This document shows, in pieces, positions 9,754-36,624 of a DNA stretch of 39,003 bases. The stretch covers positions 1 to 39,003 of the forward strand of contig JALWDJ010000040.1 of NCBI GenBank assembly GCA_027014605.1, in the 5' to 3' direction. A program made the position numbers and the translations under genes. Positions within the stretch are counted from its first letter, which is position 1; each line of letters opens with the position of its first letter. The notes beneath the pieces are model-generated. The model was given only the letters and a program-made list of their open reading frames with translations, was not told the DNA's origin and did not search any database. Source of the DNA: Campylobacteraceae bacterium (lineage in GTDB: Bacteria > Campylobacterota > Campylobacteria > Campylobacterales > Sulfurovaceae).

Positions 9754-11517
9754 TTAATTTACTCTTTTTTGCATTTTATCATAACCATATATGTCATCTC
9801 TAAATTCAACTTGAGCTTTTTTAACATTATATCCTGCTGTTAAATATATAATATATACAGGTATTTTATTTTTTAAATTAATCTGTACCTTTCTTTTCCC
9901 TTTTAAAATCTTTTTTGATTTTCTAATATTTATATTATTAACTAAAGCAATAGTTTTAAATAGTTTAATAGGTTCAGATACTCTTACACACCCATGTGAA
10001 AATGCTCTTTTTGTTTTTTTAAATAGTCTTTTTACTGGTGTATCATGAAGATATACATTAAACCTATTTGGAAATTTAAATTTAATCTTTCCTAAGGCAT
10101 TTTTAGGTCCTGGTGCTTGCATAATTCTATATGGAAATTTTAAATTAGTATGATAATAATCTTCCCAATATATATTATAAGGATTAATTTTGCGAGACCT
10201 CTCATACCAATTTAAATGTATCTCTAAACCCTCTTTTTTTAAATATCTAGGGTCTCTAATCATATGAGGAATAATCTCTTTTCTTACAATTCCTGCTGGT
10301 ACTTTCCAATATGGATTTAGAACAATATATGATATGTCTCCTTTAAATATGGGGGTATTATGTCTTTTTTTACCTACAATGACAGGAATTTTATCTATCT
10401 CTTTGCCATTTTCTATATAGTGTAGCATATATTCTGGAATATTTACTATAATATATCTGTTATCTTCATCTCTTGGAAGCCATTTAACTCTATCTATATT
10501 TAAAAGAATTTTATCTATCTTATCCTCTATTGGTATATTTAAGACTTTTCTTGTACTTTTTCCAACAACTCCATCAGCTTCTAATCCATGTCTTAATTGA
10601 AAATTTTTAACAGCATCTTCCAAACACTTATCAAAAGTTGCATCTGGTTGAATTTTAATATCTAATTTACTATTATCATTCTCTTCTTCTTTTTCAAAAA
10701 GATTACCTATATCAGCATCTGCATCACATAACTTTTTTTCTAAATCTCCAGAAGCTATTAGTCTCTCTCTTAATTTAATTATAATTTGACCTGTATCTCC
10801 AAGTTTTAATCTCTTAAAATGTGGTAATTTCTTCCAACCACCTCTCTTCTGTAAATCTTTTAACTTTTTAAGAGCCTCTATTAACTCGGCATATCCAAAC
10901 CTTTTTGGGGTAATCTCTTTGATTGTCTCTTTAATATCAGGCTTTAAAAGAAGTTCTGAAATACTAAAATTAGGTTTATAATATACCCAATTAGCAGAAA
11001 TTCCTTTTTTTCTTAATCTCTTCAACTTTAAAGAGAATGATTTCCATTGAATATTTCCATATATTAGATGTTTTAAAAAATCTATATATAGTGATGTAAG
11101 ATATAACTCTGTATGGATATTATCTCTTTTATTACTATTTAAATAATTTATTAAATTTACATACTCTTTATATACCCTATCATCTTTTGTAAGTGTTATA
11201 TCATTCTCTATTTCATTAAAAAGAGTTGATGATTTTATATTAAATATATCTCCATCGAACCATAATGGAAGATAACTATTTTGACGATAAAATATTCTTA
11301 AAAATTTTCTATTTCTAATGTCTTTTATAAAATCTTTTTTTGTAAGTGTTAATTCTAACTTTTTTTGAATTTTATTAACTATTCTGGTTTTATTATCTTC
11401 TCTCTTTATCGTAGTTTTTATAGGTAATATATCAGAAGAGTTTATCTCTTTGATAGGTTTGGCATATAAAAATATTGAAAAAAAAAGAGTAGTCGCTATC
11501 CATTGGTACTGTTTCAT
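9754..11517 (-). CDS. L,D-transpeptidase, YcbB/LdtD type (copy 1)
   Basis: A 587-residue exported enzyme that would form 3-3 cross-links or attach proteins in peptidoglycan. Residues 1-19 are a signal peptide. Residues 55-200 resemble the YcbB N-terminal scaffold (LRIFYRQNSYLPLWFDG). A peptidoglycan-binding segment runs from about 238 to 328 (LKLGDTGQIIIKLRERL ... AVKNFQLRHGLEADGVVG), with an acidic insertion between its halves. The YkuD catalytic domain covers about 353-560: HDT at 491-493 and SHGC at 507-510, with nucleophile Cys510 followed by VRV. The family substrate is the tetrapeptide stem in the periplasm. It lies 74 bases from a paralogue on the same strand, which suggests duplication. 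Because both copies keep the catalytic triad residues, both are probably active. Confidence 0.92.
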   Translation of the reverse strand: MKQYQWIATTLFFSIFLYAKPIKEINSSDILPIKTTIKREDNKTRIVNKIQKKLELTLTKKDFIKDIRNRKFLRIFYRQNSYLPLWFDGDIFNIKSSTLFNEIENDITLTKDDRVYKEYVNLINYLNSNKRDNIHTELYLTSLYIDFLKHLIYGNIQWKSFSLKLKRLRKKGISANWVYYKPNFSISELLLKPDIKETIKEITPKRFGYAELIEALKKLKDLQKRGGWKKLPHFKRLKLGDTGQIIIKLRERLIASGDLEKKLCDADADIGNLFEKEEENDNSKLDIKIQPDATFDKCLEDAVKNFQLRHGLEADGVVGKSTRKVLNIPIEDKIDKILLNIDRVKWLPRDEDNRYIIVNIPEYMLHYIENGKEIDKIPVIVGKKRHNTPIFKGDISYIVLNPYWKVPAGIVRKEIIPHMIRDPRYLKKEGLEIHLNWYERSRKINPYNIYWEDYYHTNLKFPYRIMQAPGPKNALGKIKFKFPNRFNVYLHDTPVKRLFKKTKRAFSHGCVRVSEPIKLFKTIALVNNINIRKSKKILKGKRKVQINLKNKIPVYIIYLTAGYNVKKAQVEFRDDIYGYDKMQKRVN

Positions 11518-11591: not shown

Positions 11592-13334
11592 TTATTTTAT
11601 TACTCTTCTCTGTTTTTTATCATAATGATATATATCGTCACAATAGTATAACAATCCACTATTATTTACCCATGCAGTAAGATAAACAATATGAATAGGA
11701 ACACTATTTCTTAAATTTAACTGAGTCTTTTTTTTACCTTTTAAAATTTGTTGACAACGATTATAATTAATAGTTTGTTCAAATTTTGCAAATGTTAAAA
11801 GAAGTTCATTTGGTTCAGCAACTCTAATACATCCATGGGAAAATGCTCTTCGCCCCTTTTTAAATAATTTCTTATTTGACGTATCATGCAGATATACAGA
11901 AAACTGATTTGGAAATTTAAATTTAATCTTTCCTAATGCATTATCCTTTCCAGGTGGCTGTACAAATTTATATTTTTTTGTCTGTTTTGATTTTAATACC
12001 CTATACCAATCAATCTTACTAGTATCTATTGTAGGACTATTTACATTATAAGATGTTCTAACCTCATATCCTTTCTCATCTAAATAGTTCTTATTTTTTA
12101 ACATCTTTGGAATTAACTCTTTTTGAACTATGCTATCTGGTATAATCCAATATGGATTTAAAACAATAAAAGATATTCTATTACTAAAGATAGGAGTATG
12201 GTGTTTTTTATCTCCTACTATAACTCTCATAGATAACTTTTCTTTACCATTTTCAATATAAAATAACCTAAAGGCTGGAATATTTACCATAATATATCTT
12301 GTATTTGGTTGTCTTGGTAATCTTTTAATTCTATCAAGATTTAAAAGTACTTTTTTAATTTTCCAATCAACTGAAATATTAATTTTTCTTAATGTATATT
12401 TATTAATTTTTCCTGTTGGATAGAGTAGATGGCGTTTCTGAAATCTTTTAATAGCTTTTCTTAAACACTGTCCATATTTTCCCTCTTTATAAGGACAGCT
12501 ATAGTCACCTGAACTTCTTAATCTCTCTCTTAACAGTTCCACATATTTTCCAGACCTACCATATCTAAGTTGTGAACTATTAGGTATTTTTTTCCAACCA
12601 CCTCTATTTTTAATCTCTTTTAGTCGCTTTAACTCTTTTAACATCTTTTTATAATTAAAACTATTTGGAGTTGTAATCTCAACTGCTTTTGATGGCATAT
12701 AATTTAATATGAGACGTTTTATATTATATTTTGGATTATATACAATCCAGTTAGCAGATATTTTATTGTCTCTAAGTCTCTTTAAATAGTTTTGAAACTC
12801 TACCCAATTTATTGAACCATAAATATGAAATGATAGATATGATTTATAAAGTGAAGTCAATTCTATATCTAATTTCATTTTATCAGCTATTGTTAAATTG
12901 TTTTTTTTTAAACGATTTTTTAGATAATTATACCTCTTAAATATATTACCTCTTTTATCTAACATAATATCTGAACTAATAACCCTAAATAGATTATCTA
13001 TCTTTTTAGATTTTATCCCTATATTTGTAAACCAAATCGGCATATATCTATTTTTTCTATATATATTAGTAATAAATTTCCGATTAGATATGTTGTTAAA
13101 AGTTTTTGATGTTTCATCAATAATCAATCTCATTAAATTTTTTGTAGCTTTTTCAGTAAATACTATTTCAGATAATGATACATCTCTATTATATTGATTA
13201 CTACTTAGAGAAAGTGTATCAAAGGGTTCATTAATAGAGTCAAATTTATCTATAGAATTTACAGTCATTGCCTCAATTACTACAGCCAACATTATTATGA
13301 TAATAATAAACAGTATATTTTTCAAAATATTCAC
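11592..13334 (-). CDS. L,D-transpeptidase, YcbB/LdtD type (copy 2)
   Basis: A 580-residue paralogue of the neighbouring enzyme with the same domain order: a signal anchor at 1-22 (rich in Ile), the YcbB-like N-terminal scaffold (FITNIYRKNRYMPIWF), a peptidoglycan-binding segment at about 257-318 (LRYGRSGKYVELLRERL, KAIKRFQKRHLLYPTG) and the YkuD domain at about 345-560. Catalytic His483 (in YLHDTS) and the SHGC motif at 499-502 with nucleophile Cys502 are intact. It has a shorter peptidoglycan-binding region than copy 1, without the acidic insertion. The start is a GTG at 13334-13332 with TAGGAGAG upstream. Two tandem non-identical copies suggest different donors, acceptors or placement along the cell. 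Confidence 0.92.
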   Translation of the reverse strand: MNILKNILFIIIIIMLAVVIEAMTVNSIDKFDSINEPFDTLSLSSNQYNRDVSLSEIVFTEKATKNLMRLIIDETSKTFNNISNRKFITNIYRKNRYMPIWFTNIGIKSKKIDNLFRVISSDIMLDKRGNIFKRYNYLKNRLKKNNLTIADKMKLDIELTSLYKSYLSFHIYGSINWVEFQNYLKRLRDNKISANWIVYNPKYNIKRLILNYMPSKAVEITTPNSFNYKKMLKELKRLKEIKNRGGWKKIPNSSQLRYGRSGKYVELLRERLRSSGDYSCPYKEGKYGQCLRKAIKRFQKRHLLYPTGKINKYTLRKINISVDWKIKKVLLNLDRIKRLPRQPNTRYIMVNIPAFRLFYIENGKEKLSMRVIVGDKKHHTPIFSNRISFIVLNPYWIIPDSIVQKELIPKMLKNKNYLDEKGYEVRTSYNVNSPTIDTSKIDWYRVLKSKQTKKYKFVQPPGKDNALGKIKFKFPNQFSVYLHDTSNKKLFKKGRRAFSHGCIRVAEPNELLLTFAKFEQTINYNRCQQILKGKKKTQLNLRNSVPIHIVYLTAWVNNSGLLYYCDDIYHYDKKQRRVIK

Positions 13335-16830: not shown

Positions 16831-16871
16831 TTGATATATATCAAGTTTTGCAAAATAGATATATGTATAAT
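16831..16871 (+). promoter_or_regulatory. CRP/FNR-type box and -10 of the reductase operon
   Basis: TTGAT-ATAT-ATCAA at 16831-16844 is a perfect match to the FNR consensus (TTGAT-N4-ATCAA) and extends to a 16-base palindrome (16830-16845). A perfect TATAAT lies at 16866-16871. With transcription starting near 16878-16879 the palindrome is centred at about -41, the class II activator position, and no TTGACA is present. The signal (oxygen or nitric oxide) depends on which CRP/FNR-family protein binds. Confidence 0.75.
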
Positions 16872-16902: not shown

Positions 16903-17499
16903 ATGACTTTTAAGAGTTCAATAGAACTATTAGCTTTTCACAATGTGGCATATTCAATTTATGCATTCTTAATAATATCTATTATTGCATGGTTTGGATA
17001 TAATTTAACACGAAAAGAGAAAGCTAAATCAGTTGTGCGAATACCATTTTATACATATATCGCATTCTTAGTAATAGGTGGCGTGGGACACCATATATTT
17101 ACCTACAATACTATTCCATGGGTATCTGAAGATATTACAAGACATGAGATTAAGCCAGATGCTACATATAATTTTGAGATTACAAAACATAAATGGAAAC
17201 TTCCTGCAAAACAGATAGTTATTCAATGTGGACAGAAAGTTCTCTTTAATGTTAAGAGTAATGATTTAGTTTATGGTTTTGGTCTATTTAGACAAGATGG
17301 TAGTATGGTTATGCAGATGCAAGTAAACCCAGGAAGTAGAAATGATATATTATGGACATTTTTACATAATGGAGAGTTTGATTTAATGTCAACAGAGTAT
17401 TCTGGACCTCATCAATATGATGAAAATGGTAATGATTTGATGAAAGTAAAAAAACTTGTTAAAGTTGTAGGCTGTAAAGAAGATGGAGGTAATAAGTAA
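16903..17499 (+). CDS. Heme-copper oxidase/NO reductase subunit II, CuA-less
   Basis: A 198-residue membrane protein with two N-terminal helices (about 10-33 and 48-68) and a periplasmic cupredoxin-like domain (about 85-195). It resembles cytochrome c oxidase subunit II, including W151 and the STEYSGPH segment at 163-170 that aligns with the C-x-E-x-C-G-x-x-H CuA loop. However both CuA cysteines are replaced (Ser163 and Ser167), and the upstream His position in SNDLVYGF is Tyr124; so no CuA centre is expected. ATG at 16903 is chosen: AGGAG lies five bases upstream, while the frame open to 16819 would put the start upstream of the -10 box. It overlaps subunit I by one base (TAATG). Loss of CuA is what is expected for NO-reductase-type rather than oxygen-reducing complexes. 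Confidence 0.82.
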   Translation: MTFKSSIELLAFHNVAYSIYAFLIISIIAWFGYNLTRKEKAKSVVRIPFYTYIAFLVIGGVGHHIFTYNTIPWVSEDITRHEIKPDATYNFEITKHKWKLPAKQIVIQCGQKVLFNVKSNDLVYGFGLFRQDGSMVMQMQVNPGSRNDILWTFLHNGEFDLMSTEYSGPHQYDENGNDLMKVKKLVKVVGCKEDGGNK

Positions 17500-19163
17500 T
17501 GAGTTTAATACAAAATTTAATAAATGGAACAAATTTTGACCATAAGAGTCTAAATGCACTACAAAAGGTAACACTTAGAGCTGTTGTTATGTCATTTCTA
17601 TTTTTTGGATTAGTTGCTATTGAGGGTATGATTATGAGACTAGTTCAAGCTCATGCCCCAATTCCAAACCAATTCTATCACCCTGAACACTACTTCTCTA
17701 TTATGACAGTCCACCCAATTGTAGGTATTTTTGGTTCAACATATCAATTAGTATTTGCTGCATTTATGTTTTTAGTACCATTTTTAACTAAAAAGCCTCT
17801 ATATAGTGTAAAGTTAGCAAACTGTGTTTGGTTACTTATTACTATTGGTACTGCTTTAGCGTGGCTATCTGCATTCTTTACACACTACGCACCTCTATAT
17901 ACACTATATTGGCCACTACCTGCTGATACAGACCAATTTAATCTAATTGGTGGTATTGTATTTATAATTGGTGTTGCACTCATTATGATAGGAACTTTAG
18001 GTTTTATATATAATATATATGCAACTATATTTGCTAGAGTTGGAGTACATAAAGATAAGACAACAAAAGAGCTATTAATATCTGGTTTTGGTATTGATGG
18101 TATGTTAAACTTATGGAATAAATTAATTGGTAAACAGCCATATAGTAAAGAACCTGCTCTAGCACTACCTGTTGTTGCAATCTTTAGAGGAACTGTAGAT
18201 ACATTTTTAGATGCTATTGTTATTTTAGGTGCTGGTATTTTAGTATTGATATATTTAATATTTGATGCATCTGGACACCCTTTAAATGTTGCTTCCATTG
18301 ATGCACTACTATATAAAAACTTCTTCTGGTGGGGACTTGATTTAGTTGCTGATGGATTAGTTCTTATATATGTAGCTGGTTCGTGGTATCTACTTGCTAC
18401 ATTAATAACAGGTCAAAAGCTATTTATGGAGAATGTTGCAAGAGCTGCATTAATGTTAGAGCTTTTAGTATCTTGGATGGTATGGTCTCACCACCTATTG
18501 GGTGACCAAGGACAACCTGAGATGATGAAGTTAATATCTGGTGAAATGGTAACGGCATTTGAGCTTCTAACTCAAGGATTAGCACTATTTATTACACTAG
18601 TTACTCTATGGAAAGCTCGTCCATTAAAAATGACAATGGAATTAAAATATCTTCTTGGTGGTTTAGTTGGATTTGGATTAGCAATTCCGGCAGCAATTAT
18701 TCAAGCTGATATGGGAATGAATAGAGTTTTACATAATACTCAATGGATTATTATGGCACATGTTCACATTGCACTTATTGTTGGATTATATATGACTCTA
18801 TATAGTGCTTTATATGTATTATGGCCAATAGTTACAAATAATACTAAGATGTTCTCATCAAAACTATCTAATGCTCACTTCTGGTTATATCTAATTGGTG
18901 GTATTGGCATGGGTGCATTTGGTGGTATGGCAGGACTTGATGGAATGCTTAGACGACATCTATATGTCCATGGTGAGTTTAATACCTATATGGTTCTAGC
19001 AGCTATTTGTGGTTCAATGGTACTAATTGCATGGTTTATATTTCTATTTAATATAGTTATGTCAGTAGGTATTAAAGGACTTATTGGTATCTTCCTTCCA
19101 GCAGAAGATAAAAGTGCATCTTATGGCATAGAGCCTGAGAGTGTAGCTCAAAATCATAAATAG
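17499..19163 (+). CDS. Heme-copper superfamily catalytic subunit, gNOR-like nitric oxide reductase
   Basis: A 554-residue protein with about 12-14 transmembrane helices. Low-spin heme ligands are His72 (in MTVHPIVG) and His423; the high-spin heme ligand is His421 (both in AHVHIALI). Two active-site metal ligands are His331-His332 (VWSHHLLG). The third, normally His in WWVVHLWVEG of cNOR or GHPEVY of oxidases, is Asp281 in WWGLDLVADG, with Asp285 where cNOR has its Glu; the oxidase Tyr-His cross-link motif is absent. That pattern fits the NO-reductase-like branches named gNOR in surveys of the superfamily (from memory, reported in Epsilonproteobacteria). The expected reaction is 2 NO + 2 e- + 2 H+ to N2O at the inner membrane. 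It is coupled with the CuA-less subunit II, under a CRP/FNR-type box and closed by a terminator. Activity is inferred, not shown. Confidence 0.85.
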   Translation: MSLIQNLINGTNFDHKSLNALQKVTLRAVVMSFLFFGLVAIEGMIMRLVQAHAPIPNQFYHPEHYFSIMTVHPIVGIFGSTYQLVFAAFMFLVPFLTKKPLYSVKLANCVWLLITIGTALAWLSAFFTHYAPLYTLYWPLPADTDQFNLIGGIVFIIGVALIMIGTLGFIYNIYATIFARVGVHKDKTTKELLISGFGIDGMLNLWNKLIGKQPYSKEPALALPVVAIFRGTVDTFLDAIVILGAGILVLIYLIFDASGHPLNVASIDALLYKNFFWWGLDLVADGLVLIYVAGSWYLLATLITGQKLFMENVARAALMLELLVSWMVWSHHLLGDQGQPEMMKLISGEMVTAFELLTQGLALFITLVTLWKARPLKMTMELKYLLGGLVGFGLAIPAAIIQADMGMNRVLHNTQWIIMAHVHIALIVGLYMTLYSALYVLWPIVTNNTKMFSSKLSNAHFWLYLIGGIGMGAFGGMAGLDGMLRRHLYVHGEFNTYMVLAAICGSMVLIAWFIFLFNIVMSVGIKGLIGIFLPAEDKSASYGIEPESVAQNHK

Positions 19164-19216: not shown

Positions 19217-19822
19217 TTGATATATTTAGATAGAGTAGCATTAGAGATAAAGAGTGTTGGTCTGTATAATTTAATTTTACAAGATGTAGAGAAGATTTTA
19301 AATAAAAAAAATCCTACTAAAGATGAAATTTTAGAGACCATAAAGAGTAATCCTGAAATCTTAGAAGAGTATAAACAGACAAATACGGAGTATAATATCT
19401 CCAATATTCATATTAAAAATATAGATATCTCTAAACTAAAAGATAGCTGTAGAGATATTGCTAAAAAGGTAAACAGTAAGTTAAACCATCTAAGAGAGAT
19501 AGAGAAATATACTCTTGATTTTGAGCAGAGTTCAACTTTGGTAATTATCTTTTCTATAGAGTTTTTTGTACTATTTTCAGTTCAATATTTTATAGTTTTA
19601 TTAGATTTAAAAGAGTGGCAACTATTAATATATGGAGTATTTGCTAGTAGTGTACTATTTGCTTGGATTTATGCAAATAGAGAGAGAAAAAAATATAAAG
19701 AAAATAGGATTATATATAATAGAGAATATAAAGAGGCATTAGAATTAATATCTAAACTTGAAGATAGTAATTGTATTAAGAAATCAGATTTAATAATAAA
19801 AGAGTGTGATGAGCATGTCTAA
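19217..19822 (+). CDS. Hypothetical membrane protein with coiled N-terminal region
   Basis: A 201-residue protein that I do not recognise. Residues 1-100 are charged and mostly helical, with heptad-like stretches (KLKDSCRDIAKKVNSKLNHL near 82-101). Two adjacent hydrophobic segments follow at about 113-131 and 137-152, then a basic helical tail with KYKEN and a second helical stretch. It would be anchored in the inner membrane with both large parts in the cytoplasm. The start is TTG at 19217, with AAAAAGGA six bases upstream; no ATG lies near. It overlaps the next gene, so the pair forms a unit separated from the reductase operon by a hairpin. Confidence 0.65.
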   Translation: MIYLDRVALEIKSVGLYNLILQDVEKILNKKNPTKDEILETIKSNPEILEEYKQTNTEYNISNIHIKNIDISKLKDSCRDIAKKVNSKLNHLREIEKYTLDFEQSSTLVIIFSIEFFVLFSVQYFIVLLDLKEWQLLIYGVFASSVLFAWIYANRERKKYKENRIIYNREYKEALELISKLEDSNCIKKSDLIIKECDEHV

Positions 19823-20324
19823 AGAGGAGGAGATAAAACTTTCATATATTTGGAATAGAGATAAATATATAGAGGCAAATAAAATAGCTTATGATTATGC
19901 ACTAAAAAGTTCACCAAAACGATTTTTAGGTTGGATATTTATTGCTATGAGTCAATTTGGTGTAGTTAGTGCAATGAAAGGTGGAGGAATTGGACTTCTT
20001 CTACTCTCATCTATATTAATCTTATATTGGTACTACTTTAGATGGAAAATTAGAAAAGTTATATTAATTAAAAATTTTGAAAAATCTAAAAATAAGAACT
20101 ATAAATTTAATATAACAGTTAATAGTAGTGGATTAGATATTAATAATACTTTTATAGAGTGGAAAGATATATTGGAATTTGTATCTCTAAAGAATGGATT
20201 TTTACTCTATTATAAGGATAGTTTTCTATTTATCCCATCTAGTGCATTTAGAGATATTGAGATAAAAAACCTCTTTGCATCTATGGCTAAAGAAAAAATA
20301 GAAAATTATAATAGAGTTGATTAA
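19809..20324 (+). CDS. YcxB-like membrane protein
   Basis: A protein of about 171 residues. It has two hydrophobic segments (about 41-58 and 63-80) after a charged N-terminus, then a soluble domain with NITVNSSGLDINNTFIEWKD and FLLYYKDSFLFIPSSAF, which is the shape and signature of the YcxB-like domain (a small PH-like beta domain after two helices). Function of the family is unknown. Possible starts are GTG 19806, ATG 19809 and ATG 19815; ATG 19809 is preferred, overlapping the preceding gene by 14 bases. It converges on groEL with a 23-base gap that holds a hairpin. Confidence 0.7.
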   Translation: MSMSKEEEIKLSYIWNRDKYIEANKIAYDYALKSSPKRFLGWIFIAMSQFGVVSAMKGGGIGLLLLSSILILYWYYFRWKIRKVILIKNFEKSKNKNYKFNITVNSSGLDINNTFIEWKDILEFVSLKNGFLLYYKDSFLFIPSSAFRDIEIKNLFASMAKEKIENYNRVD

Positions 20325-22452: not shown

Positions 22453-22529
22453 GGTAAGATAGCTCAGCTGGTTAGAGCGCTGGTCTCATAAGCCGGAGGT
22501 CGGGGGTTCAAGTCCCCCTCTTACTACCA
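22453..22529 (+). tRNA. tRNA-Met (CAT)
   Basis: A 77-base cloverleaf including an encoded CCA. The acceptor stem is GGTAAGA/TCTTACT with a G-T first pair, the D arm is GCTC...GAGC, the T arm is GGGGG-TTCAAGT-CCCCC, and the anticodon loop CTCATAA reads CAT. It lacks the initiator features (mismatched first pair and three G-C pairs in the anticodon stem), so it is elongator Met; a tRNA-Ile with modified CAT cannot be excluded by eye. Confidence 0.95.
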
Positions 22530-24407: not shown

Positions 24408-24482
24408 GCGGGAATAGCTCAGTGGTAGAGCACAACCTTGCCAAGGTTGGGGTCGCGAGTTCGAACCTCGTTTCCCGCTCCA
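24408..24482 (+). tRNA. tRNA-Gly (GCC)
   Basis: A 75-base cloverleaf with encoded CCA. The acceptor stem is GCGGGAA/TTCCCGC, the anticodon loop TTGCCAA reads GCC, and the T loop is TTCGAAC. Confidence 0.97.
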
Positions 24483-24492
24483 TAAAGTTTTT

Positions 24493-24579
24493 GCCCGGGT
24501 GGTGGAATGGTAGACACAGGGGACTTAAAATCCCCCGGTCATTGTGACCGTGCCGGTTCAAGTCCGGCCTCGGGTACCA
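24493..24579 (+). tRNA. tRNA-Leu (TAA)
   Basis: An 87-base class II tRNA with a long variable arm (GGTCATTGTGACC) and encoded CCA. The acceptor is GCCCGGG/CTCGGGT, with two wobble pairs, and the anticodon loop CTTAAAA reads TAA, which suits the TTA-rich codon use of this window. Confidence 0.97.
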
Positions 24580-24601
24580 TGATAAATTAGGTGACAAAAA
24601 A

Positions 24602-24675
24602 GGCGACATCGCCAAGTGGTAAGGCCGCAGCCTGCAAAGCTGTTATCCCCAGTTCGAATCTGGGTGTCGCCTCCA
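24602..24675 (+). tRNA. tRNA-Cys (GCA)
   Basis: A 74-base cloverleaf with encoded CCA. The acceptor is GGCGACA/TGTCGCC with discriminator T (U73), typical of Cys, and the anticodon loop reads GCA. Confidence 0.97.
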
Positions 24676-24729
24676 TAATTTAATTTTAGTTTAAGGTTTT
24701 TTTGCTAAAATTGCACTCTTTATAGATGT

Positions 24730-24817
24730 CGGGAGATGTCAGAGTGGTCGAATGTGCCGGTCTTGAAAACCGGTGAGGGTAACACCTCCGGGAGTTCGAA
24801 TCTCCCTCTCCCGGCCA
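24730..24817 (+). tRNA. tRNA-Ser (TGA)
   Basis: An 88-base class II tRNA with a long variable arm (GAGGGTAACACCTC), discriminator G and encoded CCA. The acceptor is CGGGAGA/TCTCCCG and the anticodon loop CTTGAAA reads TGA. It follows the Cys gene after 54 bases. Confidence 0.97.
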
Positions 24818-26454: not shown

Positions 26455-29400
26455 ATGAATAGCATATTTAAACAGATAATAATTTTATTAATAGTTATAT
26501 TTAACTCCAATCTATTTGCAGATGGAGGAAATATTCAAATTACAGTTAGTGATGCAAGTGATGTATATGAGGGGAGTGGAACTCCTTTAAAGTTTACAAT
26601 TAAACTAAGTCAAAATCATTATTTTCCTGTAAAAGTAAACTATACCACAGTTAATGGGAGTGCTAAGAGTGGAGTTGACTATATAAAAACTAGTGGAAGT
26701 GTTATTTTTTGTAGGCATGAAACAACAAAAACTATTGAAGTTCCAGTAATTGATGATGATATACATGAAAATGCTGAAAATCTATATATGGATATATCAA
26801 GCTCATCTAATGGATATATTGTAACAAGAGGTAGAGGGCGTGGAAAGATACATGACGATGATAGACCTCCATTAGAAGCAAAGATATATAATAGATATGA
26901 ATATGAAAAAGATATTAATTGGGATTTAAAATTCACAGTTAAATTAAATCAGATTGCTCCAAAAGATATTGAAATGGACTATACAACTATAGATAGAAGT
27001 GCAATAGATGGAGAAGATTATATTAAAAACAGTGGAACTCTTACAATTCCTAAGGGAAAAAAGTATGGATATATCCCTATTACTATAATTGGAGATACAA
27101 TTCCAGAGAGTAATGAAGACTTTAAGGTACAAATATCATCTATTTCAGAGGGAACTATTATTAGAGATACAGCATGGGGGACTATTAAAAATGATGATAC
27201 TATAAAAATATATATGGATAGTTATGATACACAAGAGGGTAATATTGGAGACCATAATAAGATGCAATTTAGGGTATATTTAAAAAAAGATTACCCATTA
27301 GATACTCCTCTTACTATACATTATCAGACACAAGATGGCTCATCAACACCAAGTGCAACCTCATCAAGTGACTATATATCTAAGAGTGGAGATATTACCT
27401 TTAAGAAAGGAAATAGAATTAAAGATATATTCGTAGATATTATAGGAGATAATATAATAGAGGATAATGAGTTTTTACGGATGAACTTATCTGGAAGTAG
27501 CTATATTAAAACAGACCACTCTCAAGCTCTAATATTAAATGATGATGGAGAGTATCCAGCTATATCACTATCAAGTTCAAACTATTCCATAGCAGAAGGA
27601 AATAGCTCCTCTAAAAATTTAGATTTTATATTTAATTTAAATAAACCAGCAGTTAATGATAGCTCTTTTCACTATGAGACTTGGAATGATACTGCTACAG
27701 TAGAAGATAATGATTACATATATACACATGGAGATATGACAATTCCAAAAGGAACTAAAAACTTTAAAATCTCTGTTCCAATTAATGGAGATACTAAAAT
27801 AGAAGATGATGAAACGTTCTATTTTGGATTTACAAATCTAAATAAATTAAATTATGGAAGAGTTAATCAAGCAACTGCAACTATTGTAAATGATGATGGC
27901 TCTTATCCTACTCTCTCTTTTACAAAAGATAATTTTTCAGTTATTGAGGGAAATAGTAGTATAAGAGATTTAAATTTTACTCTACAGTTAGATAAACCAG
28001 CACTAGAAGACTCACATTTTGATTATTATACATTAGATGGTGATGCTAAAGCTAATGAAGATTATATTAAGGTTAGTAGAACAACATTCAATATTCCAAA
28101 AGATGTAACATCTATTAGCCTTCCTATTAAGATAAAAAGTGATACTAAAATAGAAAATGATGAAAATTTTTATCTTAAAATAGATAATGAGACCAATAAT
28201 CTTAAGATACAAGGAAAACAGAAAGTAAAAGGAGTTATTATTAATGATGATGGCTCATATCCTAAATTAGATATAGAAAAACCAAATTATAGCTCCTATG
28301 AGGGAAATAGCTCAACTCATACTATAGATATTAAATTAGTTTTAGATAAACCAGCATTATCAAATACATCTATAGACTATTATACTTATGATAAAACTGC
28401 ACAAGATGGAAGTAGCTCTTCTGAAGATAGTGATTATATGGGTATGAATGGAACAATAAATATCCATAAAAATCATACATCTGCTACACTTAAAGTAACT
28501 ATTAATGGAGATAGAAATATTGAACCAGATGAATTATTTATACTTGCATTAAAAAATCCTAAAAATCTTACTACAGGAAGAAGTAGTAGTGGAATTTATA
28601 TATTAAATGATGATATTCATAATGAAGAACCATTTACTTGTGATAATCATATGTATCTATCAAGTAGTATTAAAAGGGGTAGTAGAGTAACAGGTAAAAT
28701 GTGGTTGCATAGAATAGATACTTCAAAATCCCCATTTAAATTTGAGGTTATGGATGATAAAGGGGAAGATAAACTCTATAATGCACTAGCCTACTCTACA
28801 AAAGATAATTATATATATGGATTATACTATAAAGAGTTATTTAAAATAAGTAAAACAGGTAAAGTAATGAGTTTAGGAGATGTAACGAGACTACCTGATA
28901 TATTTAAAACTAATCAAGCCTATGCAGGAGCTAGTTTTAATGGATATTACTATGTTACAGGATTTGGAGTTAATTATAATAAAATGTTTAAGATTAAATT
29001 AGATGATAACGATACCAAAAGAGATGTTCAAGAGATAAATCTAACTAAATCTGTATCTATTAAAGACTTCTCATTCTCTCCTGATGGTAAATATCTATAT
29101 GGAGTTGCTGATGGTGGAAAGCTTACTAAGATAGATGTAAATAGTGGAGAAGTTACTTTTATTGGTAATCCTCATACTGAATATGAGTTTGACTCCTCAT
29201 TTTCAGATAAGAGTGGTAGATTTTTTGCAAATGATAGTAAAGGACATGGATTTTTTGAATTTAATTTGAAAAATGGAACAAAAAGATTTCTATCCAAATC
29301 ACAAAAAGCTGATTATAATGATGGTGCTAACTGCCTTGATGCTACTTTAGTATTTACAGATTATGGAGATGCTCCTGTCTCTTATGGTAAAGCAGGACAT

Positions 29401-31875
29401 AATATATCAAATGGTATATTTTTAGGTGATAATATAGACCATGATATTAACTATTTTGATACAGTAGATGCTAATGGAGATGATAGTGATGGAGTTGATG
29501 ATGAAGATGGGCTAACATTTACAGATGGAAAAGATATAAATGGAGAATATTTTGAATTAAATAGTACAACAACCCTAAAAGTAAAATTATCTAAAGAGGC
29601 TTATTTAAAAATATGGATAGATAAAGATATAAATGGTTATTTCAATAAAGATAATGAACTTGTATATAGTGAAAAATTGACAGCAGGAGAGCATAATATA
29701 GATATTTTTCTACCTGTCAATTTAGCAAAAAATAGAAAAACATATTTAAGAGCTAGAGTCTCTAGTAAGCCTAATATGAACCCTACAGGTTTTGTGACCG
29801 ATGGAGAAGTTGAGGATTATCAAATCTATTTTGGAGATAAATCTAAACCACTACAAGGAATATTTAATGTTGAAAGAACTAATAGTGGCTCATATACAAT
29901 CAACTCAAAAGATAGAAATGCTTGGTTTACACAAATTGTGGGTAGAGATTTTGACTACTCTATAGTTTTTTATAAAAAAGATATGTCTCAACTACAAGAT
30001 TTGGATAGTAATATCACTATTAAATTAGAGCTTATTGATGAAGATAACAATAGAACTCTATATAATAGATATGGATATATCTCAAATAGTAGAGTTGATA
30101 TTATATTACCATCAGATTTAAATTTACTTCCAGCTACAAAGAGTGCTAGATTTAGAGTATCTTATGGAGTTGATGAGAGTGGAAATATTATCCAATCAAA
30201 CTGTACTACTGACTTAGAGAGCTGTTTTAATGCAATGGGAAGAATTGCTTATAGTGATGCAAGAGATAATTTTGCAATTAGACCAGAATATTTTCATCTA
30301 ATTTTATCTGATAACAATCTAACTAGAAGAGTTAATATCTCACCAAATAATACTAAACCTCTAAGATTTGCATCAGGGTATGATTATAACTTAACTGTAA
30401 CTGCCTCTAGCTATAATGGAACAGATGCCAATCCATCAATAGACTATAATAGTTCATTAGTAACAAGAACTTTAGAGTTTTTAGATAAAAATCTATCTAA
30501 ATGTATAGACAAAAGTGATAAAATCTCCAATGAGAGCTTTATTAATGGAAAAAATATAACTCATCTATTTGAAAATCAGAATGTTGGAAGATATAGACTC
30601 TCTATAAAAGATGAGAATTGGAGTATGGTCGATATTAAGAGTGGAGATTGTGATATTAATAAATCATATACCTCATCAGATGGAAATGTTATATCTGGTT
30701 GTAATATAGTCTCAAATCCAGATATAAATATCTCATTTTTCCCATATCTATTTGATATTAACTTTACTATAGATAACCTTCCACACAGTTCACATAGTGA
30801 TTTTATCTATATGAGTGAGATTAACTCTACATTTAATAGTGTTGCTATTGCAATTCAAGGAGATGTTACTGCCATAAGTCAAGATGGAGATATAACTACA
30901 AACTTTACAGATGGCTGTTTTTCTAAAGATACTCTATTTAATATAGGAGTAACTACACTATCTGATAATGGAGTAAATCAATCTATTAGAACAACAAAAG
31001 GGAGTGATATTAATTTTACAAGAGTGACTAGATTTAATGGTGAAGCTAATGTAACTATTAATAGAAATAGCAGATTTAATCTCTTACCAAATATCAATAT
31101 ATCTAAAGATAGATTTAAAGCTAATGCAAAAGCTCATCTTGATATAAGATATAATGTAGATAAAAATCTAGCTGAGACAATAAACCCTATTCAGATAACC
31201 TTTAGAAGAATTGATACAAACTCAACAGAAGCAAACTCAACAGCTAATCTATTAGATGAAGTTAATCCATATATTCCAAAAGGGAGCGAAGATTTAAATA
31301 ATACTATTCGTAACTTCTATTTTGCTAAAGTATCTCCAGATAAAGTTAAATTTCCAAGACTATATTTTAAAAATGGAGATACCATTAGAACACCTCTTCA
31401 GATAGAGATATTTTGTGGTGGTAGCGTAGATAGTAAATATTGTCAAGATACAAATCTACTAAACCACACCTCTATTGTAAGTAGTCCACGAGTTGAAAAT
31501 GGTTGGTATCTATCTATAGACCATAATGCAACAGTTGATGGAGGAGTTAATAATTTAATTCCAAATAGTTTAACTCCTAATATATTAGTTTTTACTCCTG
31601 CTATGCCTATTAGATTTACAAATGGTAGAAATGGAGTTGTTATGACAAGATTTACAAATCCACACGGAACTCAAAAGTATAGAGTTGACATATATGCAGA
31701 CCCACAACTAAGATACTATGGAGGTAAAACAAAATCAAATATTCCACAAGGGATAAATCACTATTTTGTAATGGGAACTGAAAATAACTCATCAACTTGG
31801 ACAGGAGTTGGAAAGACAGGTAACCTTTTAGATATTAAACCAAATACAAATTCAGCTCGTAAAATGGATTGGTAG
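26455..31875 (+). CDS. Giant Calx-beta repeat surface protein with GEVEDY domain
   Basis: A 1806-residue exported protein. Residues 1-22 are a signal peptide. Residues about 25-721 hold six Calx-beta domains of 113-121 residues, each ending in a DD-G or NDD motif (near 134, 247, 363, 480, 598 and 719) and carrying the Ca2+-binding pattern of an early EG and a DYI segment. Residues 725-965 look like a beta-propeller of the kind seen in surface proteins (FSPDGKYLYGVADGGKLTKI). Residues about 968-1125 form a GEVEDY domain, starting DYGDAP and ending DGEVEDY. Residues 1126-1806 are beta-rich with scattered cysteines and I do not recognise them. There is no obvious C-terminal anchor, barrel or sorting signal, so the route to the surface is unclear. 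Adhesion or cell-cell contact with Ca2+-stiffened stalk is the likely role. Confidence 0.85.
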   Translation: MNSIFKQIIILLIVIFNSNLFADGGNIQITVSDASDVYEGSGTPLKFTIKLSQNHYFPVKVNYTTVNGSAKSGVDYIKTSGSVIFCRHETTKTIEVPVIDDDIHENAENLYMDISSSSNGYIVTRGRGRGKIHDDDRPPLEAKIYNRYEYEKDINWDLKFTVKLNQIAPKDIEMDYTTIDRSAIDGEDYIKNSGTLTIPKGKKYGYIPITIIGDTIPESNEDFKVQISSISEGTIIRDTAWGTIKNDDTIKIYMDSYDTQEGNIGDHNKMQFRVYLKKDYPLDTPLTIHYQTQDGSSTPSATSSSDYISKSGDITFKKGNRIKDIFVDIIGDNIIEDNEFLRMNLSGSSYIKTDHSQALILNDDGEYPAISLSSSNYSIAEGNSSSKNLDFIFNLNKPAVNDSSFHYETWNDTATVEDNDYIYTHGDMTIPKGTKNFKISVPINGDTKIEDDETFYFGFTNLNKLNYGRVNQATATIVNDDGSYPTLSFTKDNFSVIEGNSSIRDLNFTLQLDKPALEDSHFDYYTLDGDAKANEDYIKVSRTTFNIPKDVTSISLPIKIKSDTKIENDENFYLKIDNETNNLKIQGKQKVKGVIINDDGSYPKLDIEKPNYSSYEGNSSTHTIDIKLVLDKPALSNTSIDYYTYDKTAQDGSSSSEDSDYMGMNGTINIHKNHTSATLKVTINGDRNIEPDELFILALKNPKNLTTGRSSSGIYILNDDIHNEEPFTCDNHMYLSSSIKRGSRVTGKMWLHRIDTSKSPFKFEVMDDKGEDKLYNALAYSTKDNYIYGLYYKELFKISKTGKVMSLGDVTRLPDIFKTNQAYAGASFNGYYYVTGFGVNYNKMFKIKLDDNDTKRDVQEINLTKSVSIKDFSFSPDGKYLYGVADGGKLTKIDVNSGEVTFIGNPHTEYEFDSSFSDKSGRFFANDSKGHGFFEFNLKNGTKRFLSKSQKADYNDGANCLDATLVFTDYGDAPVSYGKAGHNISNGIFLGDNIDHDINYFDTVDANGDDSDGVDDEDGLTFTDGKDINGEYFELNSTTTLKVKLSKEAYLKIWIDKDINGYFNKDNELVYSEKLTAGEHNIDIFLPVNLAKNRKTYLRARVSSKPNMNPTGFVTDGEVEDYQIYFGDKSKPLQGIFNVERTNSGSYTINSKDRNAWFTQIVGRDFDYSIVFYKKDMSQLQDLDSNITIKLELIDEDNNRTLYNRYGYISNSRVDIILPSDLNLLPATKSARFRVSYGVDESGNIIQSNCTTDLESCFNAMGRIAYSDARDNFAIRPEYFHLILSDNNLTRRVNISPNNTKPLRFASGYDYNLTVTASSYNGTDANPSIDYNSSLVTRTLEFLDKNLSKCIDKSDKISNESFINGKNITHLFENQNVGRYRLSIKDENWSMVDIKSGDCDINKSYTSSDGNVISGCNIVSNPDINISFFPYLFDINFTIDNLPHSSHSDFIYMSEINSTFNSVAIAIQGDVTAISQDGDITTNFTDGCFSKDTLFNIGVTTLSDNGVNQSIRTTKGSDINFTRVTRFNGEANVTINRNSRFNLLPNINISKDRFKANAKAHLDIRYNVDKNLAETINPIQITFRRIDTNSTEANSTANLLDEVNPYIPKGSEDLNNTIRNFYFAKVSPDKVKFPRLYFKNGDTIRTPLQIEIFCGGSVDSKYCQDTNLLNHTSIVSSPRVENGWYLSIDHNATVDGGVNNLIPNSLTPNILVFTPAMPIRFTNGRNGVVMTRFTNPHGTQKYRVDIYADPQLRYYGGKTKSNIPQGINHYFVMGTENNSSTWTGVGKTGNLLDIKPNTNSARKMDW

Positions 31876-34631: not shown

Positions 34632-35975
34632 ATGTCTAAATCAAGAGTAGAAAAAGCTCCTGTTAAGTTTGATATTAATGATTTAGCAACATTGATGAGT
34701 GACCTCCAAAAAGAGAGTTATCTTAGTGACTACTTTTCAGAGACAGATAAAAAGGGGCGTTATCTGTATTGGAATGAGTTTAAATGGAGAGTTCCAAGAG
34801 AACATAATGCTCAAAAGGCGTGGCTTATTACAAAATGGGTTAGATTTACAAAAAGAAAACCGATAGAGCTTTGTGATGTAAATAATAATGAGTTTCACTT
34901 CTGTATCCCTGATTCTCTTCAAGCAAAACTATATAAAATTGCTAAACTATCAGGAGAGGGGACTCCCACTAACTCTATACAGAAGAGATACCTCATCTCC
35001 TCACTAGTTATGGAAGAGGCTATTAGTTCAGCCCAATTAGAGGGTGCATTAACAACAAGAAGAGTAGCTAAAAAGATGTTGGTGGAGGAGAGAGAGCCAA
35101 GAAGTGAAGATGAGCAGATGATTTTAAATAATTATATGTTAATGAATGAGGTAAAATCTCTAAAAGATGCTCCACTTAGCATAGATATGATAAAACATTT
35201 TCACTACATAGCTACCTCTGGAACTTCTCAAAATGGAGTTATTGCAGGTGAGTTTAGAAAGGATAATGAAATAGTCATTGCAGGTTCTGATGGAGAGATT
35301 TTACATCAACCACCACCATGTAGAGATATAGAGGAGAGATTGGAGAAAATTTGTAACTTTGCAAATAATAACCACTCTGGAGATGATGGACAGAGTTTTA
35401 TTGACCCAATAGTAAAAGCTATTATTTTACACTTTATGATAGCCTATGAACACCCATTTGCAGATGGAAATGGAAGAACAGCTAGAGCAATATTTTATTG
35501 GTTTATGCTAAAGAATGGATTTAACTTTTTTGAGTATCTATCTATCTCTAAACTATTAAAAGAAGCTCCTGTACAGTATGGAATGTCATATCTATATACA
35601 GAGATAGATGAAAATGATTTAACCTATTTTATATATTATCAAGTAGATATAATCCTTAGAGCAATGGACGAGCTATTTAACTACCTAAATGAGAAGAGTA
35701 GAGAGATTAAAGAGGTATTGATACTACTTGAAAACTCTAAAATTGGAGATAGATTAAATTTTATTCAAAAAGATATTGTTAAAAAAGCGATGAAAAACCC
35801 CGGTAGAGTCTTTACAACTAAAGAGATTGTAAAAGATTATGATATATCAAGCAATACAGCAAGAAAATATCTAAAAGATTTAGTAAAATATAAAATATTA
35901 GCCTCATTTAAAGAGGGAAGAACCATCAACTATATCTCATTAGCAAATATTAGAGAGGTTTTAGAGGGGGATTAA
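34632..35975 (+). CDS. Fic-family AMPylase with built-in inhibitory helix and winged helix
   Basis: A 447-residue protein. Fic enzymes usually move AMP from ATP to Ser/Thr/Tyr of target proteins. The active motif H-P-F-A-D-G-N-G-R is at 274-282 (catalytic His274), followed by TARAIFYW. An inhibitory-helix motif S-x3-E-G is at 133-138 (SAQLEGA), so it is a class II, self-restrained Fic with Glu137 as the blocking residue. The N-terminal domain is DUF4172-like (YLYWNEFKWRVP). Residues about 375-445 look like a winged helix (NPGRVFTTKEIVKDYDISSN), which suggests DNA contact or dimerisation. It begins 17 bases after the M16-like gene. No separate antitoxin is needed in this class. The target is unknown. 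Confidence 0.9.
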   Translation: MSKSRVEKAPVKFDINDLATLMSDLQKESYLSDYFSETDKKGRYLYWNEFKWRVPREHNAQKAWLITKWVRFTKRKPIELCDVNNNEFHFCIPDSLQAKLYKIAKLSGEGTPTNSIQKRYLISSLVMEEAISSAQLEGALTTRRVAKKMLVEEREPRSEDEQMILNNYMLMNEVKSLKDAPLSIDMIKHFHYIATSGTSQNGVIAGEFRKDNEIVIAGSDGEILHQPPPCRDIEERLEKICNFANNNHSGDDGQSFIDPIVKAIILHFMIAYEHPFADGNGRTARAIFYWFMLKNGFNFFEYLSISKLLKEAPVQYGMSYLYTEIDENDLTYFIYYQVDIILRAMDELFNYLNEKSREIKEVLILLENSKIGDRLNFIQKDIVKKAMKNPGRVFTTKEIVKDYDISSNTARKYLKDLVKYKILASFKEGRTINYISLANIREVLEGD

Positions 35976-36047: not shown

Positions 36048-36293
36048 ATGTTAAGTTACGGAATTACAGATATACAGACGAAACCATCTTTAATAAAGCA
36101 AATGGATATGGGAAAAATTATTGATAAGAGGTCTCGTATAACTTTAGGTTACTTTATATCATCAAAATATGATAGATTAATAACTCCAATTATAAAACAG
36201 ATTGAGAGAGAGAAAAAAATAGAAAAACTCAAAAGACTAAAAGCACATCAAGATTTAGAGTTTGCAGAACTTGGAGTTGATGATGGACTTTAA
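36048..36293 (+). CDS. Phd/YefM-like antitoxin
   Basis: An 81-residue protein. The first half, YGITDIQTKPSLIKQM then RSRITLGYFISSKY, resembles the Phd/YefM fold, which binds operator DNA as a dimer. The second half is a charged helix (QIEREKKIEKLKRLKAHQDL) of the kind that wraps and blocks a toxin. It overlaps the PemK/MazF-like gene downstream by about eleven bases, the normal antitoxin-first order. An extended -10 element TG-T-TATTAT lies at 36010-36018. Such antitoxins repress their own operon; no clear palindromic operator could be picked out by eye. The antitoxin assignment rests on both shape and position. Confidence 0.65.
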   Translation: MLSYGITDIQTKPSLIKQMDMGKIIDKRSRITLGYFISSKYDRLITPIIKQIEREKKIEKLKRLKAHQDLEFAELGVDDGL

Positions 36294-36624
36294 AAGAGGT
36301 GATATAGTTACAGTAAATCTCAATCCAAAAAAGGGGCATGAAGTTGGTAAAATTAGACCTGCTATTATCATATCAAATGATGATGAGAATAAAATACTTG
36401 ATACTGTAATACTTATGCCATTATCAACTGATTTAATTGATGATATGGAACCGTATAGAATAAGAATTACAAAGAGAGATAATCTTAAATACAATTCAGA
36501 TTTACTGATAAATCAAATAAGAACGCTATCAAAAGTTAGAATTAAAGAGAAAATTGGAACTATTACAGATAATGAATATCAAAATATTATTGAAAATCTT
36601 TGTAAAAATTTTTCTTCTATATAA
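36283..36624 (+). CDS. PemK/MazF-type ribonuclease toxin
   Basis: A 113-residue endoribonuclease of the MazF/PemK/Kid fold. FKRGDIVTVNLNPKKGHEVG and KIRPAIIISNDD give the family start (the GD and R-P positions); VILMPLSTD and LLINQIRTLSKVRIKEKIG give the later strands with the conserved Q-x-R-x-x-S/D core. It would cut mRNA at short sequence motifs to slow growth under stress. The start at 36283 is preferred because GGAG lies six bases upstream; ATG 36280 and a TTG at 36262 are also in frame. The start lies within the antitoxin gene. Pairing a MazF-fold toxin with a Phd-like antitoxin is a mixed-partner arrangement. Confidence 0.85.
   Translation: MDFKRGDIVTVNLNPKKGHEVGKIRPAIIISNDDENKILDTVILMPLSTDLIDDMEPYRIRITKRDNLKYNSDLLINQIRTLSKVRIKEKIGTITDNEYQNIIENLCKNFSSI

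Follow-up and report, generated by a model that had tools for sequence, protein, structure and literature searches.

The window analysed here, a stretch of 39,003 nucleotides from a Campylobacteraceae bacterium, carries on its forward strand a gene pair that we assign to the gNOR (norGH) family. The catalytic subunit I is encoded by positions 17499 to 19163 (ATG at 17499, stop at 19163; 554 amino acids), and its product matched Pfam COX1 with an E value of 9.5e-49, as expected for subunit I of a heme-copper oxidoreductase; none of the NCBIfam oxidase equivalog cutoffs was reached by it. Subunit II (16903 to 17499, forward strand) starts at an ATG preceded by AGGAG, and its stop overlaps the subunit I ATG by one base. 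It consists of hydrophobic N-terminal segments and a cupredoxin domain that lacks the CuA ligands, and it adjoined subunit I in all 43 gNOR loci compared. Two further genes follow on the same strand: orf3 (19217 to 19822), encoding a 201-amino-acid membrane protein of unknown function and present downstream of gNOR in 35 of the 43 loci, and orf4 (19806 to 20324), which overlaps orf3, encodes a 172-amino-acid YcxB-like membrane protein (Pfam YcxB, 1.2e-06) and was found in 36 of them. No terminator was predicted on the plus strand between subunit I and orf4, and orf3-like copies (about 30% identical) were also observed downstream of three of five divergent gNORs. Both genes are candidate accessory genes of gNOR. 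At locus L024 (2575 to 3811), the orf3-like gene that follows a divergent gNOR is doubled in tandem, and the gNOR neighbourhood of some species holds NarK-like, NirA-like and Nas/Fdh-like genes.

Elsewhere in the window, two adjacent paralogues resembling L,D-transpeptidase/peptidoglycan-binding proteins lie on the reverse strand (9754 to 11517 and 11592 to 13334). The forward strand bears a tRNA-Gly-Leu-Cys-Ser cluster (24408 to 24817), a gene for a secreted protein of 1,806 amino acids with Calx-beta-like repeats (26455 to 31875), and a Fic-domain-like gene (34632 to 35975; motif HPFADGNGR) close to one for a small MazF/PemK-like protein (36262 to 36624). A tRNA-Met is found at 22453.

The genome, a member of the Campylobacterota whose closest named relatives are vent MAGs labelled Sulfurovum, Campylobacteraceae or Epsilonproteobacteria, contains three PF00115 genes: that of a cbb3 oxidase (CcoN, at locus L001), that of a cNOR, and the gNOR subunit I gene described above. 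The cNOR is a norCB pair adjoining a cd1 nitrite reductase, away from the gNOR locus. NosZ is also encoded.

To locate the active-site residues, subunit I was aligned by MAFFT with 16 reference sequences (eight A-type or A-type-like, one B-type, two C-type, three cNOR and two qNOR). The five ligand histidines listed in the earlier note (H72, H331, H332, H421 and H423) were all present, and their numbering was exact. H72 (17712 to 17714) falls in the column of the TM2 low-spin heme ligand, H331 and H332 (18489 to 18494, TM7) in those of the remaining two histidines of the non-heme metal, and H421 and H423 (18759 to 18767, TM10) in those of the high-spin and low-spin heme ligands, respectively. 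The note had also placed an aspartate at the TM6 ligand position, where a histidine would have spoken against it. Within the TM6 motif WWGLDLVADG (18327 to 18356), D281 (codon 18339 to 18341) indeed occupies the column that is His in all 16 references, oxidases, cNOR and qNOR alike. The second aspartate, D285 (codon 18351 to 18353), lies four residues further on, in the column of the oxidase Tyr (HxxxY) and of the cNOR and qNOR Glu (HxxxE), as had been proposed for the cNOR Glu. The match to the cNOR Glu was ungapped; on the oxidase side, both MAFFT and hhalign placed a one-residue gap just within the motif, so that the equivalence with the Tyr rests on the equal +4 spacing. GHPEVY was absent from subunit I, as stated before. 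All seven positions (H72, D281, D285, H331, H332, H421 and H423) were identical in 103 of 103 full-length Campylobacterota sequences, and the substitution by Asp is thus not a matter of chance.

A further acidic residue, E355 (18561 to 18563), aligned with the FSALEP Glu, the second conserved Glu of cNOR and qNOR, and was likewise invariant in the 103 gNOR sequences; this column is of medium certainty, being anchored across an indel by the downstream TQG/PTG/P segment. In cNOR and qNOR, the Glu at TM6 His+4 is bound to or near FeB, and a second-sphere Glu accompanies it (PMC10256718). D285 and, with the medium certainty of its column, E355 would be the counterparts of both acids, and the non-heme iron site of gNOR is most likely a 2-His/1-Asp site. 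Compared with the 16 references, the K-channel Lys and the HPE Glu were both missing at the aligned positions, and an Arg pair at residues 485 and 486 (heme-propionate), a trait of A/B-type oxidases, was found. The AlphaFold model of gNOR, built with 18 close homologs, had a pLDDT of 60 overall and of less than 50 at residues 268 to 295; since this low-scoring part holds the active site, its ligand geometry was not used. A Foldseek search with the model confirmed the heme-copper fold and nothing more, and a single-sequence search of solved structures gave no match for gNOR.

As to the electron donor, subunit II matched CuA domains in the PDB (E = 4e-8), that of Thermus ba3 included. In the alignment with CoxB and CyoA, both CuA cysteines are replaced by Ser and the first His by Gly, and the motif STEYSG resembles the ASHYSG/NSNFNG of quinol oxidases, unlike CAEFCG. 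No CxxCH was found in subunit II; the neighbour of subunit I is a cupredoxin, not a NorC cytochrome c. The quinol cluster of bo3 includes Asp75 and His98 (PMC10256718). When bo3 numbering was transferred by counting from the TM2 heme His and from the TM1 Arg, E42 (17622 to 17624) and H64 (17688 to 17690) of subunit I fell at the Asp75 and His98 positions, respectively, and both were invariant in 103 of 103 gNOR sequences. Among the references, the acid and the His each occurred only in the three quinol-oxidase-type rows (cyoB, qoxB and Ruegeria), and they were kept by no cytochrome-c oxidase or NOR compared. The other two residues of the bo3 site are changed (Arg71 to L38 and Gln101 to S67), and a quinol site at E42/H64 is accordingly plausible in an altered form.

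In the phylogenetic tree, gNOR formed a clade of its own (support 100/100), which takes in Sulfurimonas indica; many copies came from Sulfurovum MAGs. The earlier note had expected the protein to lie outside the O2-reducing A-, B- and C-type oxidases. This held for the A and C types, while the placement relative to the single B-type sequence, a long branch, was left unsettled (p = 0.488). The grouping of gNOR with A and B types against C-type and c/qNOR received 97/96 in this tree, which was built from gNOR, the three oxidase types and, for the other NORs, cNOR and qNOR only. A grouping of gNOR with c/qNOR survived the AU test (p = 0.095). In view of these two p values, an origin of gNOR independent of cNOR is favoured, not proven. 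The profile comparison, with a probability of 98.8 for an A-type oxidase and of 0.4 for the genome's own cNOR, agrees with an affinity to oxidases and speaks against any special closeness of gNOR to cNOR. Should gNOR derive from oxidases, which depends on the rooting, the acid pair D285/E355 would represent convergence with cNOR and qNOR. Two assignments within the O2 reductases were rejected: for an A/B type, gNOR has DLVAD where HxxxY with its cross-linked Tyr is required, and for a C type (cbb3), it stands in a clade separate from CcoN-like sequences.

Upstream of the gNOR operon, an FNR/NNR/DNR-type palindrome, TTGATATATATCAA, was found at 16831 to 16844. It is the sole exact match to TTGAT-N4-ATCAA in the window, where 0.16 would be expected. 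The FNR/NNR-type box TTGATatatATCAA was found at the equivalent upstream position in 47 of 72 species, against an expectation of 0.15 from shuffling, and in 56 of 72 when the inner half-site positions could be T/C and A/G. Three patterns obtained by permutation or reversal occurred upstream of gNOR in 0 of 72. A one-base variant, TTGACTAATATCAA, lies 90 bp upstream of the first ORF of the genome's own norCB-nirS operon. Further exact boxes of the FNR type, most of them within genes, occur in the genome and yielded no regulon. Because FNR- and NNR/DNR-type regulators share the TTGAT-N4-ATCAA site, control by O2 and control by NO are indistinguishable from it, and the box could serve an O2-sensing FNR. 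A Crp/Fnr-like regulator gene at locus L128 (16246 to 16896, reverse strand) adjoins the nosZ region of the same genome, and its product is a candidate for binding the box.

gNOR was present in 17 of 160 near-complete Campylobacterota genomes, a count that excludes weak matches (E of about 1e-6 to 1e-11) in other genomes of the phylum; the one weak match that was read out proved to be a cbb3 sequence. A NirS-like gene occurred in 15 of the 17 carriers versus 7 of the 143 noncarriers, and within the family NirS was found in 41 of 44 carriers versus 26 of 73 noncarriers, contrasts that are both inflated by shared ancestry. Since cNOR accompanies gNOR in most carriers (38 of the 44 in the family), NO reduction by gNOR would usually be redundant. 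In three genomes (G003, G177 and G220), NirS and gNOR were present and c/qNOR was not found, bearing in mind that draft genomes can miss genes; in G177, which is 99% complete, the nirS locus is intact without an adjoining norCB, and NosZ is present. The gNOR of G034 (locus L019) has an internal stop near residue 359 and that of G280 several stops; these copies may be genes in decay, in lineages that retain cNOR, or else assembly errors.

The product of 17499 to 19163 is an ordinary, well-conserved representative of a family that already has a name. The earlier note put the novelty of its altered site too high, because both the gNOR family and the altered site had been named in the literature; altered ligands have probably been reported for the family before. 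For gNOR, published data give D as the active-site residue, to which D285 at the oxidase-Tyr/cNOR-Glu position corresponds in 103 of 103 sequences, Sulfurimonas, Sulfurovum and Persephonella as hosts, and 0 proton channels (PMC8756737, Table A4). Members are also known from Ca. Methylomirabilis (PMC6094997), and norGH, the same enzyme, is described as quinone-oxidising and non-electrogenic (PMC8906906). The note's assignment to gNOR was thus sound, since the published active-site D and the Sulfurimonas and Sulfurovum hosts, as well as every property tested, agree with it. The present analysis adds evidence converging on quinol:NO reduction, along with orf3 and orf4 as candidate accessory genes.

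Relatives, neighbouring genes, control sequence and distribution all suggest the removal of NO with electrons from quinol, and the pair at 16903 to 19163 probably forms a quinol-fed membrane NO reductase of the gNOR (norGH) type. We infer the identity of the metal, its ligand set, the use of quinol and NO as substrate from sequence comparisons. Quinol would probably be oxidised near E42/H64, and the electrons would pass to the low-spin heme (H72/H423) and on to the high-spin heme (H421), which would face a non-heme metal. This metal is probably iron, and H331, H332 and D281 would be its ligands. D285 and E355 would replace the two cNOR/qNOR glutamates beside FeB, as a further ligand or as a proton relay, and 2 NO would be converted to N2O without proton pumping. 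A regulator of the Fnr/Crp family may turn on the operon together with the denitrification genes, and the enzyme would in most cases work alongside cNOR and in some be the sole NOR found. A wider proposal, a four-gene quinol:NO reductase with a 2-His/1-carboxylate iron site opposite heme and a D285/E355 pair acquired from the A/B-oxidase side independently of cNOR, and needing the undescribed orf3 and orf4 proteins as extra subunits or assembly factors, is put forward only tentatively.

Part of the same evidence could be read differently. The closeness of the gNOR profile to A-type oxidases rather than to cNOR, and the heme-propionate Arg pair and cupredoxin subunit II shared with A/B oxidases, would suit a quinol oxidase with a modified site, reducing O2 for micro-oxic respiration or O2 scavenging. 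However, two aspartates stand in place of the cross-linked His-Tyr pair, the K-channel Lys is missing, gNOR tracks NirS in its distribution and a cbb3 oxidase is already encoded in the same genome, and we hold this reading to be very improbable. Some other handling of NO, be it dismutation, sensing or detoxifying reduction solely under NO stress beside cNOR, also seems improbable: dismutation would need no quinol site, yet the features of such a site are conserved, and the three genomes with NirS and gNOR and no c/qNOR match suggest a role in the pathway. In its favour, gNOR coexists with cNOR in most carriers, and a nitrosative-stress role has been suggested for the extra NORs of Ca. Methylomirabilis (PMC6094997).

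Within NO reduction itself, D285 (or E355) might instead complete the metal site with H331 and H332, leaving D281 as an acid of the second sphere. Glu211 of cNOR, at the D285 position, binds FeB directly (PMC10256718), and the AlphaFold model is too weak to place D281 near a metal or to tell the two arrangements apart. Set against this, the D281 column is the ligand His in every reference and D281 is invariant, which makes the arrangement rather unlikely in our judgement. The preferred reading is a quinol-dependent NO reductase with D281 as the probable third ligand. If true, such a 2-His/1-Asp site next to heme would offer a test, provided by nature, of which ligands NO reduction requires. 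Nitric oxide reductases release N2O, which has a strong greenhouse effect, and in annotation a gNOR gene can easily be taken for that of a cytochrome oxidase. The genomes with NirS and gNOR in which cNOR and qNOR were not found offer a direct test of whether gNOR by itself suffices to close denitrification in vent bacteria. New handles on its control and assembly come from the conserved box and from orf3 and orf4.

Compared with known systems, gNOR has in common with cNOR (NorCB) and qNOR (NorZ) the acid at TM6 His+4 and the Glu in a later column. It differs from them in the TM6 ligand, which is His in their three-His site (with Glu at +4) and Asp in gNOR (D281, followed by D285), in having no NorC-like cytochrome c subunit, in its A/B-type Arg pair and in forming a separate clade. 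With the A-type quinol oxidases (bo3 and aa3-600) it shares a CuA-less cupredoxin subunit II and the acid and His at the Asp75 and His98 positions, whereas it lacks their HPEVY with the cross-linked Tyr, their K-channel Lys, and Arg71 and Gln101. Among the PDB sequences that subunit II of gNOR matched best is the CuA domain of the ba3-type (B) subunit II; in gNOR, the CuA ligands are replaced. For its part, the published gNOR (norGH) agrees with the pair at 16903 to 19163 in the active-site D, the two subunits, the lack of CuA, the proposed use of quinol and the Campylobacterota hosts, and no difference between the two was found.
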